NCBI RefSeq assembly: GCF_900102905.1
Contig: NZ_FNFV01000002.1
Coordinates: 248,001 to 312,000, forward strand
From: Meinhardsimonia xiamenensis
GTDB taxonomy: Bacteria; Pseudomonadota; Alphaproteobacteria; Rhodobacterales; Rhodobacteraceae
DNA: 64,000 nt
Direction of reading: 5' to 3'
Of this stretch, positions 51,886-56,270 are shown piece by piece. Numbering within the stretch: position 1 is the stretch's first letter; each line of letters opens with the position of its first letter. The position numbers and the translations under genes are program-made. The notes under the pieces are model-generated. The model was given only the letters and a program-made list of their open reading frames with translations. It was not told the DNA's origin and searched no databases.

Positions 51886-52890
51886 TTATTCGCCCCGCAT
51901 CGCCGCGAGAGCCGCCTCGCCGCCGACGCTCTTGACGTAGGCTTCGACCACGCCCCGAACCGCCTCGGCGAAGGGCGCTGCCTCCTCCGGCGTGAGATCG
52001 ACGACCGTGTTGCGCGCGTCCGCCCGCGCGGCGTCAAGCGCGGCGTCCGCGGCGGCATACCAGGCATCCTCGGCGCTCTTCGAGAGCGGAATCCCCGCCA
52101 CGGCATCGATGGCGGCGCGATGTTCGGCCGGCAGGCTCTCGTATTTCGCCAGGTTCATGACCGTGTAAAAGGCGATGCGCCCCAGCGGCGCGCCGGTGGT
52201 GATGGCGTCTGCAACCTCGTCGAGCTTGAAGTCGGTGAGGGTGGAGGCGCCGGTGATCACTCCGTCGATCAGCCCGGTCTGCAGCGCGTTGTAGACCTGA
52301 TTGATCGGCATCTGCACCGGCGTGGCGCCGAGCGCCTCGGCCACCTCCGCGGCGGTGGCGCCTGCGACGCGCACCTTCAGCCCGGCGAGATCGGCCGGTG
52401 TGCGGATGACCTTGTTGCGCATGATGAAGATGTTGGGCTCCGACGTCCACAAAGCCAGCGGCTTGGTGGCGGGGAACTCGTCCTTCAGATGCGGATCATA
52501 CGCGGCCCAGAGCGCCTCATAGCCGGGTTTCTCGGGTGGAATCGCCCCCGGAAGCTCGGCGATCATCGTCTTGCGGAACTGCGAGGAGGTGTAGCCCGGC
52601 AGCCCCCAGACGATGTCGGCCACACCCTGAACCGCGCGCACATACTGCTCCACGGGGCCCGAGCCGAGCTCGCCGCCATGGTAGCCCCGCACGCGAAGCT
52701 CTCCGCCGGTGCGGGCGCTGAGCTCGGAATCGAGCTTCTCGATCACGCTCTTGTTGATGGTGTGGAAGGGCGGGGTGAAGTTGGCAAACTTGAGCTCCTC
52801 GGCAAACACCGGCAGCGCCGTCACGGCGGCCATGGCGAAGCCTGCGAGCGTTCCCGCCAAAGCCCCTGCGAATTCACGTGCGATCTTCAT
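51886..52890 (-). CDS. dctP: TRAP transporter periplasmic substrate-binding protein (DctP), ligM-linked
   Basis: 334-aa secreted protein with a signal peptide of about 30 residues (GTLAGFAMAAVTALPVFAEE). The fold signature LAGLKVRVAGATAAEVAEALGATPVQMPINQVYNALQTGLIDGVITG contains the carboxylate-binding Arg. The ATG at 52890 follows a GGAGGAGG site. The upstream spacer holds a perfect 11-bp hairpin between ligM and this gene. Unlike the first TRAP set, no hairpin separates dctP from dctQ here (3-base gap). Confidence 0.92.
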   Translation of the reverse strand: MKIAREFAGALAGTLAGFAMAAVTALPVFAEELKFANFTPPFHTINKSVIEKLDSELSARTGGELRVRGYHGGELGSGPVEQYVRAVQGVADIVWGLPGYTSSQFRKTMIAELPGAIPPEKPGYEALWAAYDPHLKDEFPATKPLALWTSEPNIFIMRNKVIRTPADLAGLKVRVAGATAAEVAEALGATPVQMPINQVYNALQTGLIDGVITGASTLTDFKLDEVADAITTGAPLGRIAFYTVMNLAKYESLPAEHRAAIDAVAGIPLSKSAEDAWYAAADAALDAARADARNTVVDLTPEEAAPFAEAVRGVVEAYVKSVGGEAALAAMRGE

Positions 52891-52939
52891 CTTCCTCCTC
52901 CTGTTGTCTTTTTTCGGGCCGGCTCGCTCCCGGCCGGTC

Positions 52940-52967
52940 GCGGGGACGATAGCGCGATCGTCCCCGC
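52940..52967 (-). terminator. Hairpin between ligM and the downstream TRAP genes
   Basis: GCGGGGACGAT and ATCGTCCCCGC form a perfect 11-bp stem with a 6-base loop, 33 bases after the ligM stop. A weaker GGCCGG/CCGGCC stem follows. No T-run lies downstream on the minus strand. It could cause partial termination, giving more ligM than transporter mRNA. Confidence 0.6.
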
Positions 52968-53000
52968 CGCGGTCATCAATTTCAGGCACAGGCCATAAGT

Positions 53001-54416
53001 TCAGCCTGCTGCCTTCTCCGCCTTGGTGCGCCAGCTGCCCGGCGCGTAGGATTCGCGGGCCTGTCGCGCGTAGGGCGCGGGGCAGACGCGCACGCGGATG
53101 TCCGCCTGGCGGTGACGCTCTGTGGAGGTCTTCATGGTCGGCTCCGGCTCGCCCCATTTCAGCGTCAGCACGTCACCCACCTCGACATCAGGGTCGACCA
53201 CGCCCAGCGACAGGAGCGCGCGCTCGTTGAAGCTGTAGCCGTTGAACATGCTCAGCCCCACCATGCGATCACCCTCGAGCACCATGTCGGCCGAGGTCGA
53301 GGCGTAGTTGGGCTGCGGGAAGTCGATCCACTTCATCGGCGTGCCGTCCTCGAAGGCGGTGGCGATGACCTTGAGCACGTCGTCGCGGTTCCACTCGAAG
53401 GTGACCTTCTTGCGGTGCGGCTTGTCCTTCATCTCCTGAAGGGCGGCCTTGCCGATGAAGTCATCCTTGTTCCAGCCGATGTAGAAGCCGTAGCCGAGGT
53501 CGAAGGGCGTCATGTAGTAGTCTTCGATGTTGTCGGAGACGAAGCTGCCGCCGATCGAGCCCACCGCCTCGTACATGTCGTCGCCGAGCCAGTCGCGGTA
53601 GTCGGCGAGCATGCCCTCGCCGGTGTAGATGCCGGGCAGCGGTGAGGGAATCCAGCCCGACTCGAGCGTGTTCGTCGAATAGGCGCGGCTGCCGCAGCGC
53701 ACGAGGTTGACGCCCGCATCCTCGGCTGCCTGCAGGATCGTGGAGAGGATGTAGCTCTTGTCCTCATAGGGCCCCCAGATCTCGAGCCCCGGCGCGCCCG
53801 ACATGCCGTGGCGCAGCGCCTGCACGCGCTTCGAGCCGACATTGATCCAGTCCACATGGAAGAAGGGGATGTCGGGGATCGGCCCGCCGTTCATCTTCTC
53901 GATGACCTTCCAGGCCTCGGGGCCCTGGATCTGGTAGCGGTAGTGCACGCGCAAGACCCGCTCGCCCTCGGGCCGGCTCGGCGAGCGCGGGTCGTGGCGC
54001 AGGCGCACGTTCCAGTTGCCCCAGGCGGCGGCGAACATCAGCCAGTTGGCCGTCGGCGCGCGGCCCACGAGCACATACTTGTCCTCGCGCTCGCGGAAGA
54101 TGATGTGATCGCCGATCACATGGCCCGCGGGCGTGACCGGCACATAGTGCTTGGCCCGGTTGAGGCCGAAGTTGTCGAAGCGGTTGATCCCGTGGTGGGA
54201 GAGAAACTCGGTGGCCTGCGGCCCCTCGACGATGAGCTCGTCCATGTGGTGGGACTGGTCGAACAGCACCGCCGACTCGCGCCAGGCGCGCTGCTCGTCG
54301 CGCCAGTTGGCGAATTCCGGCGCCACCACCGGGTAGACATAGATCCCCGACCGCGAGTTGCGCAGCATCTCCACGGGGTTCTTCCATTTCTTCATCAGCT
54401 CGCTGAGGCTTGGCAT
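53001..54416 (-). CDS. ligM: Tetrahydrofolate-dependent aromatic O-demethylase (LigM/DesA-like)
   Basis: 471-aa GcvT-fold methyltransferase, the same length as LigM of Sphingobium SYK-6 (from memory). It transfers the O-methyl group of vanillate or 3-O-methylgallate to tetrahydrofolate, giving protocatechuate or gallate. Shared stretches include VEMLRNSRSGIYVYPVVAPEF, SAVLFDQSHHMDEL, HYVPVTPAGHVIGDHIIF, VGRAPTANWLMF, RALRHGMSGAPGLEIWGPYE-like text and YSTNTLESGWIPSPLPGIYTG. The ATG at 54416 gives the matching N-terminus; an upstream in-frame start has no support. Whether vanillate, syringate or 3-O-methylgallate is the true substrate cannot be told. It lies between the gntR and TRAP genes. 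Confidence 0.9.
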   Translation of the reverse strand: MPSLSELMKKWKNPVEMLRNSRSGIYVYPVVAPEFANWRDEQRAWRESAVLFDQSHHMDELIVEGPQATEFLSHHGINRFDNFGLNRAKHYVPVTPAGHVIGDHIIFREREDKYVLVGRAPTANWLMFAAAWGNWNVRLRHDPRSPSRPEGERVLRVHYRYQIQGPEAWKVIEKMNGGPIPDIPFFHVDWINVGSKRVQALRHGMSGAPGLEIWGPYEDKSYILSTILQAAEDAGVNLVRCGSRAYSTNTLESGWIPSPLPGIYTGEGMLADYRDWLGDDMYEAVGSIGGSFVSDNIEDYYMTPFDLGYGFYIGWNKDDFIGKAALQEMKDKPHRKKVTFEWNRDDVLKVIATAFEDGTPMKWIDFPQPNYASTSADMVLEGDRMVGLSMFNGYSFNERALLSLGVVDPDVEVGDVLTLKWGEPEPTMKTSTERHRQADIRVRVCPAPYARQARESYAPGSWRTKAEKAAG

Positions 54417-54444: not shown

Positions 54445-55170
54445 TCAGTTCGAGATGAGGGCAAGGCCGGGCACCTTTCCGGCCACGCTCGGGCCGGCCT
54501 TCAGAACGTGACGGAGGTTCTGGCGCGCGAGCCGGGCATGTTCGCGCATCAGCGCCTCGGCGCGCGTCCCCTCGCGGCCCGTGATCGCCTCGAAGATCGC
54601 CCGGTGCTGCGTCTGGGCATGTCTGAGAGATGCGGCGAAATCGGGGACCGTCTCCTGCCCCTGCAGGAACGCGCTCGGCGAGGCGAGGGGCAGGCGCGTG
54701 GCCCGCTCGACCTCGCGCGCGATGATCGCGCTGCCCGGCATTTCGGCGATCAGGCGGTGAAAGCGGGCATTCAGTCTGACGTAAGTCTCGAAATCGAGCC
54801 CGCCGGGCGCCGAGACGGCCCGGTCGAGCGAAGCGAGTATCTCCTGCCCCTCGCGGGCATGCGCGGCGGAGATGCCGCGCTCTGCGGCAAGCCGCGCGGC
54901 CGTGCCCTCGACGACGCCGCGCAGCTCGATGGCGTCAAAGATGTCCTCGATGGTGAAGCTGGCCACGCGGCAGCGGCCGGTGTCGAGCCGCTCCAGAAGC
55001 CCTTCCTCGACAAGGCGCGCCATCGCCTGACGCAGCGGCGTGCGGGAAATGCCCAGCTCCTCGGCAAGGGCGGGCTCGGATAGGCGCGCATTCGCCTCGA
55101 AGCGGCCCTGAAGGATCATCGCCCTGAGTTCGCGCAAGGCGCGCTCATGCTGGGATAGCCGCTCGCCCAT
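54445..55170 (-). CDS. GntR-family (FadR/FCD subgroup) transcriptional regulator
   Basis: 241-aa regulator. The N-terminal winged helix has LREL..MILQGRFEANARLSEPALAEELGISRTPLRQAMARLVEEGLLERLDTGRCRV (about residues 12-70). The C-terminal all-helical FCD domain has the metal/ligand His and Asp positions in LDFETYVRLNARFHRLIAEM and HAQTQHRAIFEAI. FCD regulators usually bind organic acids. It is placed between the ring-cleavage genes (upstream) and ligM (28 bases downstream). A TTGACA promoter with an embedded palindrome lies just upstream, which suggests autoregulation and control of the ligM unit. Confidence 0.92.
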   Translation of the reverse strand: MGERLSQHERALRELRAMILQGRFEANARLSEPALAEELGISRTPLRQAMARLVEEGLLERLDTGRCRVASFTIEDIFDAIELRGVVEGTAARLAAERGISAAHAREGQEILASLDRAVSAPGGLDFETYVRLNARFHRLIAEMPGSAIIAREVERATRLPLASPSAFLQGQETVPDFAASLRHAQTQHRAIFEAITGREGTRAEALMREHARLARQNLRHVLKAGPSVAGKVPGLALISN

Positions 55171-55226
55171 GTCTCCTCCCGGCGCTGCCCGAATCCCCTC
55201 CCAAGGCTTCGGGGGCGTTTCGGGAT

Positions 55227-55255
55227 TCGATATTCTGTATACAGTTTTGTGTCAA
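55227..55255 (-). promoter_or_regulatory. Predicted gntR promoter with an embedded operator
   Basis: On the minus strand TTGACA (55255-55250) is followed after 17 bases by TATCGA (55232-55227), a plausible sigma-70 promoter with a perfect -35 and a weak -10. The perfect palindrome CTGTATACAG (55235-55244) lies between the two elements, where a bound repressor would block RNA polymerase. It is 57 bases upstream of the gntR start. Confidence 0.65.
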
Positions 55256-55297
55256 TGCGCCGAAACGAGCGCTTGAGTGCGTCCTGAAGGGCGTAAA

Positions 55298-55305
55298 TGT
55301 ATACA
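55298..55305. promoter_or_regulatory. Second TGTATACA palindrome upstream of gntR
   Basis: TGTATACA repeats the core of the promoter palindrome at 55235-55244, with centres 62 bases apart (about six helical turns). Both fit the general TnGTnnnACnA pattern of FadR/FCD-type GntR sites. Two sites in phase would allow cooperative binding or looping. Confidence 0.55.
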
Positions 55306-55379
55306 AAAAGCAGGCGAGACTTCGGGTGCGGCGACGGAAGGGGCAGCCGCGCGCCCCTTCCGGCGGAGAAGCGGCGGGC

Positions 55380-56270
55380 TCAGTTCTTCGCGCGCATTTC
55401 CTCGAGAAGCCGAGTGGCAAGCGCCTCGTCGGCAAGGTTCCGATCCTGGCGCAGTGCCGCGCCGACCCCGGCGATCTGGCGCTGCCATTCCGCGCTCGCG
55501 CGTGCCATCCGGTTCGGAATGCCCAGCTCGGCAAGGGTGGTGGCCACCTCCTCCATCTCGGCGGCGCGGCGTGCGCCGTGGGTGACCATCCGCTCCAGGT
55601 TGTAGGCGACCTGCCGGTGCCAGTCGATCTTGCCGTGGCTGGCGTTGAGCGAGGCGAGCACCTCGTCGCCGACCCCGGCGGCGGCGGCGGCAAGGCCAAG
55701 CTCGGCCGAGAGCGCCTCGATCCCCTTCACCATCACCGAGCGCAGCATCTTGATCGCCGAGGCCCGCCCGACCTCCTCGCCGGCGGGCTCGGCCGCCATC
55801 GGCAGGGCGCGCAGACGCTCGATGGCGCGCGTCGCGTGCGGCCCCGAGACAAGGAGGGGCGTCAGATGCCGCTTCGGCCCGACAGGCGCCATCACCGCCA
55901 CGTCCACATAGGCACCGCCCGCCGCGTCCACGGCTCGGGCGGCCGCGCGCTTGGTGCCGGGCGAGACCGAGTTCATGTCGCAGTAGAGCGTGCCGGGGCC
56001 GAGATGGGGGGCGGCGGCTCTGGCCGCGGCCAGCGCCTGATCGGCCGTGACAACCGAGATCACCAGATCCGCCCCGGCGAGCGCCTCGGCAAGGCTCGCC
56101 GCGCCTTCCACCCCGAGCCGCTCATACAGCGCGCGCTGGGCTACCGCAGTCTCGGCGCGGTCGGTCTTGATGTCATAGGCGGCGATCTCGGCCGCCGGCC
56201 CGCCCGCCTCGCGCCAGCCGGTAACGAAGGTCGAGCCCGCCTCGCCAAAGCCGATGAAGGCAATGCGCAT
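55380..56270 (-). CDS. NAD(P)-binding beta-hydroxyacid-type dehydrogenase with DUF1932 domain
   Basis: 296-aa protein of the 6-phosphogluconate/3-hydroxyisobutyrate dehydrogenase superfamily. The Rossmann fold starts MRIAFIGFGEAGSTFVTGWREAG (GxGxxG), and YCDMNSVSPGTKRA is the substrate-binding motif. The catalytic Lys is in ASAIKMLRSVMVKGIEAL (about K177), and the C-terminal helical part is the DUF1932 domain. It begins 3 bases after the dienelactone hydrolase stop at the end of the ring-cleavage operon. In that place one would expect a dehydrogenase for the cleavage product (LigC role) or for a later intermediate; the true substrate is unknown. Confidence 0.88.
   Translation of the reverse strand: MRIAFIGFGEAGSTFVTGWREAGGPAAEIAAYDIKTDRAETAVAQRALYERLGVEGAASLAEALAGADLVISVVTADQALAAARAAAPHLGPGTLYCDMNSVSPGTKRAAARAVDAAGGAYVDVAVMAPVGPKRHLTPLLVSGPHATRAIERLRALPMAAEPAGEEVGRASAIKMLRSVMVKGIEALSAELGLAAAAAGVGDEVLASLNASHGKIDWHRQVAYNLERMVTHGARRAAEMEEVATTLAELGIPNRMARASAEWQRQIAGVGAALRQDRNLADEALATRLLEEMRAKN

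Follow-up and report, generated by a model that had tools for sequence, protein, structure and literature searches.

Comparative evidence for short-loop autorepression at a gntR-ligM locus of Meinhardsimonia xiamenensis

Results

A gntR-ligM locus with two identical palindromes

The window analyzed here is a stretch of 64,000 nucleotides from the genome of Meinhardsimonia xiamenensis. On its minus strand, a gap of 209 bp downstream of a DUF1932 dehydrogenase-like gene (55380-56270) is followed by gntR, ligM and a DctP-type TRAP gene, in that order. The features used below are:

51886-53019, minus strand: gene for a TRAP transporter DctP-type binding protein (sequence match; also 3' of gntR-ligM in some relatives)
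53001-54416, minus strand: ligM, THF-dependent vanillate/3-O-methylgallate O-demethylase (curated LigM model NF047885, 621.1 bits, cut-off 580)
54445-55170, minus strand: gntR, FCD-family putative repressor (GntR and FCD domains; 51% identity to Atu1419)
55227-55232, minus strand: -10-like box TATCGA (read from the sequence; weak, 3/6 match to TATAAT)
55235-55244, palindrome: predicted proximal operator CTGTATACAG (exact match; the octamer has the same promoter position in relatives)
55250-55255, minus strand: -35 box TTGACA (read from the sequence; a perfect -35)
55298-55305, palindrome: predicted distal operator TGTATACA (exact match; matching site in relatives; about -82 from the predicted start)

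The first-pass annotation had read the gene after gntR as ligM, and it passes the curated model; for its start we picked the ATG that lies 28 nt past the gntR stop. The DctP-type gene perhaps shares a transcription unit with gntR-ligM. A perfect inverted repeat at 55336-55361, with 9-bp arms (GGAAGGGGC/GCCCCTTCC), an 8-nt loop and no T run, lies past the DUF1932 gene and ahead of the distal operator and is perhaps the end of the unit upstream of gntR.

The octamer TGTATACA occurs on the plus strand at 55236-55243 and 55298-55305. Direct reading thus bears out the earlier description of two identical palindromes about six turns apart, as the start-to-start distance of 62 bp corresponds to 5.9 turns at 10.5 bp. 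The proximal palindrome had also been placed exactly between TTGACA and TATCGA. It is wholly within the 17-nt spacer of these boxes, but CTGTATACAG (55244-55235) does not fill it, leaving 5 nt to the -35 and 2 nt to the -10. A simple consensus promoter scan reported no promoter at the gntR upstream region, because TATCGA fits TATAAT at just three of six positions; by eye, the promoter listing has TAtc or TAgc near the -10 position in several relatives. Transcription of gntR would start near 55219, about 7 nt past the -10, and with this start the operator centres are near -82 and -20.

Based on exact matches, TGTATACA is rare. The window has exactly two copies, compared with none in 100 dinucleotide shuffles, and the earlier remark that the galB-ligI side lacks a copy thus holds for the whole window. 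The genome (3,127,641 bases) has three. The third is on contig C9 at 126614-126621 (L004:6615-6622), flanked by another gene of the GntR family and a divergent DctP-type TRAP gene, and is single, with no second site of up to one mismatch in about 160 bp on either side. When one mismatch is allowed, the genome has 49 sites (the three exact ones included) versus 99 for a reversed control word. Thus, only the exact copies stand out, and a wider one-mismatch regulon, for which there is no enrichment, is not claimed. Between 44 and 64 kb of the window there are two one-mismatch sites, at converted coordinates 47758 and 63456, and both fall within ORFs.

The regulator is related to Atu1419

The gntR product is a member of the GntR superfamily and of its FCD subfamily (PF00392, 59.3 bits, cut-off 27; PF07729, 58.9 bits, cut-off 24.3). 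None of the NCBIfam models scored above its cut-off for this protein. The closest solved relative is Atu1419 of Agrobacterium fabrum (phmmer E 3.6e-60, query residues 9-240), with 119 of 232 aligned residues identical (51%). The palindromes had been proposed as FadR/FCD-type GntR sites. The GntR and FCD domains agree with this proposal; its FadR part needs refining, as the nearest solved relative belongs to the VanR group and a FadR-type operator does not fit.

The Atu1419 residues that contact DNA (Glu34, Arg45, Thr46 and Arg49) correspond to E32, R43, T44 and R47 of the window protein, and its Zn ligands (Asn137, His141, His192 and His214) to N134, H138, H189 and H211. Both sets are invariant in 148 of 148 loci, the window included. 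Elsewhere the two proteins differ: Gly66 of the Atu1419 wing is Thr in the window protein, and only 18 of 29 positions of the tetramer (AD) interface are identical. Of six further residues, in the effector pocket, Arg86, Tyr133, Asn221 and Ser169 are kept and two differ (Lys175 is Gln and Arg183 is Ala). The pocket core is also kept in relatives without ligM and is therefore no proof of the effector.

In the accessible text of the Atu1419 paper, the protein is described as a tetramer both in solution and on DNA that binds ATGTATACAT and whose gene carries a palindrome in its -35/-10 spacer (PMC7797058). It represses its own gene, atu1418, and atu1420, the gene of a THF-dependent vanillate O-demethylase, and methylene-THF releases it in gel shifts (PMC7797058). 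The A. fabrum demethylase uses THF, and the signal methylene-THF is the putative product of Atu1418 (PMC7797058). Electron microscopy showed Atu1419 looping two palindromes that are, by the paper's own value, 190 bp apart, and structures are available (PDB 6z74, 6za0, 6za3, 6za7 and 6zab) (PMC7797058). A term search of the same text found no mention of helical phase (PMC7797058). We searched 82 genomes of one alphaproteobacterial family for Atu1419's own locus and spacing (E 1e-60) and obtained no match, a result that carries no weight. Judged from its sequence, the window GntR would be a newly recognised Atu1419-type (VanR-group) regulator.

The MTHFR gene was considered as a regulon member and rejected: the MTHFR-like protein of locus L175 has one match in the window's genome, on contig C5, and this contig has no site of up to one mismatch. 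In L175 itself (1501-1560), an exact TGTATACA pair spaced 52 bp is just upstream of the MTHFR-like gene (weak TIGR00676 match), next to a DUF1932 gene 43% identical to that of the window and, by eye, an apparent PrpF-type gene.

The predicted operators are conserved upstream of gntR-ligM

Among 49 family matches to gntR (E 1e-40 or better), ligM is directly 3' of gntR in 34. Loss of the sites from orthologous promoters had been set beforehand as the refutation test for the operators. Each of the 34 gntR-ligM loci has one or more exact copies of TGTATACA in the 400 bp preceding gntR, as do 7 of the 15 family matches without ligM. Pairs in phase with the helix occur in 23 of the 25 gntR-ligM loci outside a sister clade nearer Atu1419, and in one of nine inside it. 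Some ligM-linked relatives have only a single recognisable site (L126, L131, L141, L142, L152 and L154).

The position of the promoter relative to the operator was profiled in 29 ligM-linked loci (identity at least 53.9%) and 45 other relatives, after removal by hand of L159, a likely copy of L031. In 15 of the 29, and in none of the 45, the first base of a TTGAC is exactly 12 nt ahead of the proximal site. Given this offset in about half of the ligM-linked loci and its absence from the others profiled, the operator in the spacer is an inherited design of the ligM-linked branch. Among the 80 named relatives listed out of 385 matches, mostly near 50% identity, 41 have no site of up to one mismatch in 400 bp. 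The spacing rule described below belongs to one branch and not to all such regulators.

Two further loci are of note. In L176 (1501-1582), an exact pair 74 bp apart is located between gntR and ligM and precedes ligM instead of gntR. L190, a class-level relative of gntR, was reported with one in-frame TAG.

Operator spacing usually changes by whole turns

The spacing rule was first noticed upstream of gntR relatives and was then tested gene-blind, by a search for exact TGTATACA pairs in 394 genomes of the family, each from a different genus. Pairs spaced 44-74 bp were found in 22 genomes, versus 4 for the reversed control word, and pairs spaced 75-105 bp in 7 genomes versus 1. The 29 spacings are 48, 52 (twice), 62 (six times), 63 (ten times), 73 (twice), 74, 83 (four times), 84, 104 and 105 bp. 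Of these, 28 (all but the 48-bp spacing) deviate by at most 1 bp from a multiple of 10.5 bp, as do 14 of the 62 possible values. The fetched loci include a gntR relative for 24 of the 29 pairs (in L183 merely a distant paralogue), and ligM of at least 55% identity is near 19 of them.

The gene-first set, which overlaps the gene-blind one, gave a similar count: of the adjacent exact pairs spaced 40-200 bp that precede gntR relatives, 34 of 36 are in phase. This set comprises 148 loci after removal of L111 (same contig as L030), L173 and 15 loci of genomes already represented, and it is also without six pair loci that lack a gntR match at the threshold (L174, L175, L180, L181, L183 and L186). 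It includes Betaproteobacteria, for example Thauera and Azoarcus, and in it L031 and L159 are probably one organism. It holds 46 exact pairs when non-adjacent ones are included; the phase count took adjacent pairs only. When one site is exact and the other has one mismatch, 26 of the 41 pairs are in phase to 1 bp and 15 are out (manual count).

Kinship is ignored by binomial values, which mean little because related promoters are not independent. We therefore give greater weight to changes in spacing. Trees of gntR were made in a quick version (89 rows, 88 with an exact site plus Atu1419) and a careful one (36 rows, 35 plus Atu1419). Over 34 rows, with the out-of-phase L069 left uncounted, the tree implies at least 11 changes of turn number. 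Seven turn numbers were seen (5, 6, 7, 8, 9, 10 and 13), which by itself demands six or more changes whatever the tree. A single well-supported clade of five rows has spacings of 62, 63, 73, 83 and 83 bp. Based on a rough Monte Carlo test with nine clusters of distinct spacings, P is about 0.006, with draws from 40-140 although one cluster is at 181. In the family pair listing, the sites are kept while the DNA between them differs.

Other causes of phasing were considered and rejected. Tandem promoters are not apparent, as a TTGAC at a fixed offset before the distal site was found in 1 of 53 loci. Bending assisted by IHF gains no support: its consensus is equally frequent in inter-site DNA and in upstream control, with one occurrence in 3336 bp of each. 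The inter-site DNA is richer in AT (GC 0.433 versus 0.612), partly because the promoter boxes are located in it.

Exceptions to the spacing rule

None of the seven exact pairs spaced less than 40 bp is in phase; their spacings are 13, 14, 27, 35 and 36 bp in the sister clade nearer Atu1419, where the remaining members have single sites, and 16 bp in both L047 and L051. The 40-bp floor was chosen after these short pairs had been seen, and the gene-blind search covered spacings of 44-105 bp. Such close pairs might work by another geometry. Further out-of-phase spacings are 48 (L174), 87 (L069) and 181 bp (L051).

The sister clade (L136, L141-L144, L147, L148, L151, L152 and L154) consists nearly entirely of gntR-ligM loci, mostly with a DctP-type gene, and its single or unphased sites are near the start codon. 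Its operator geometry may differ from that of the window.

Phylum-wide, pairs spaced 44-74 bp were found in 17 of 398 genomes, versus 2 for the reversed control. Of 16 pairs from beyond the family, 11 are within 1 bp of phase and the others are at 54, 55, 55, 55 and 65 bp; one of the 16 (G499) had already entered the gene-first count as the L188 pair. A single genus contributes five of the six 73-bp pairs. With its third site, G295 (L181) also has spacings of 94 and 10 bp, which were not listed by the pair search. In 6 of the 15 loci fetched (L200 and L210-L214), no relative of the window GntR was found within about 1.5 kb. L210-L214, from other families of the phylum, have exact pairs at 54, 55 and 64 bp without a nearby relative, and these pairs possibly serve another regulator with its own spacing.

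Discussion

The comparative evidence for short-loop autorepression at gntR-ligM, drawn from sequence throughout, is strong. We consider it likely that an Atu1419-type GntR tetramer bridges both operators, loops the DNA and represses gntR-ligM until released by a folate one-carbon product. The gntR product would form an Atu1419-type tetramer, a dimer of dimers. One dimer would occupy the proximal operator in the promoter spacer and the second the distal operator, so placed about six turns further upstream that both are on one side of the helix. By bridging the two, the tetramer would close a tight loop of about 62 bp that contains the -35 and the DNA upstream of it, to the exclusion of RNA polymerase. 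The loop would repress gntR together with the co-directional ligM, and perhaps the TRAP genes too. Release would come from a folate one-carbon product tied to O-demethylation, most likely 5,10-methylene-THF as for Atu1419. The effector is the least certain part, since the MTHFR-like gene is elsewhere in the genome and without a site. DNA looping is also known for MatR, MdcY and LldR.

Repressor at the proximal site could block the promoter by itself, and two independent operators could then act without a loop, the distal one being a second roadblock or raising the local repressor concentration. Each Atu1419 palindrome was bound alone in gel shifts, according to the accessible text (PMC7797058), and the single recognisable sites of six ligM-linked relatives and the unphased close pairs also fit this arrangement. 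Independent operators do not require whole turns, yet the spacings of 40 bp and above obey them (28 of 29 and 34 of 36) through 11 changes of turn number, and we regard this explanation as unlikely. To explain the whole-turn rule, a second dimer has to be linked to the first and bind on its side of the helix, and an Atu1419-like tetramer would supply it. The first-pass annotation had mentioned looping with a "perhaps"; of its proposals this one has gained the strongest support, from the whole-turn changes of spacing among relatives.

The sites might instead serve another GntR paralogue, or several, the octamer being used more widely in the family. The genome has 13 GntR-like matches, gntR itself counted, and the third exact site has a GntR-family gene other than gntR on one side and a divergent TRAP gene on the other. 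Against this, the pair travels with gntR and ligM across genera and its autoregulatory position matches that of Atu1419, so we give this explanation little credence. Chance, or inherited similarity without function, is hardly credible: related promoters share ancestry, and 62 or 63 bp alone could be inherited, but two of only three copies in 3.13 Mb are 62 bp apart, sites are kept while the intervening sequence differs, spacing changes by whole turns, and the reversed control gave 4, 1 and 2 genomes versus 22, 7 and 17.

Beyond the looped tetramer at this locus, we think it somewhat more probable than its contrary that operator spacing in this GntR branch evolves by whole turns, with selection keeping small loops across several proteobacterial lineages, and that the repressor, through loops down to 52 bp in length, links aryl O-demethylation with a signal from folate one-carbon metabolism. 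We found no report of phased operators at gntR-ligM in the open-licence literature on GntR with TGTATACA, GntR looping, Atu1419, and ligM with GntR. The looping evidence found there for such GntR regulators is the electron microscopy of Atu1419 only, as given in the accessible text (PMC7797058). A natural spacing series in constant helical phase provides independent evidence for the functioning of such loops in cells, and natural promoters from 5 to 13 turns are ready-made for measuring the shortest natural repression loop. For lignin-derived aromatics, the arrangement suggests that ligM would respond to folate one-carbon status and not to vanillate itself.

FadR, LldR and other FCD regulators share with the window GntR the GT...AC logic of the palindrome and an Arg in the recognition helix, in the accessible text of PMC4494728. 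The FadR subgroup differs in that its TGGTNxACCA-type site, a consensus taken from the accessible text of PMC7797058, does not fit the window operators TGTATACA.

The likeness to Atu1419 is closer. Both are FCD regulators of the VanR group with a TGTATACA core, a palindrome in the -35/-10 spacer of their own gene and a THF-dependent O-demethylase as target, this control being predicted for the window. Autoregulation was demonstrated in A. fabrum and is likewise predicted here. The two systems differ in spacing, which is 190 bp for the palindromes of the atu1418-1419 region and 62 bp for those of the window, and in layout, as the demethylase gene has its own promoter in A. fabrum whereas the co-directional gntR and ligM of the window would form one unit. 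The operator flanks are C/G and A/A in the window versus A/T in A. fabrum. The window protein has Gln and Ala at the Lys175 and Arg183 positions of the pocket, and in the window's genome no MTHFR gene was found with a site.

The lac repressor offers a functional parallel, in that two operators are bridged by one repressor, and loops of 6-8 turns repress in living E. coli with an oscillation that follows spacing, as described in the accessible text of PMC5081198. The lac repressor is an unrelated protein and its spacings were engineered (PMC5081198), whereas those described here form a natural series.
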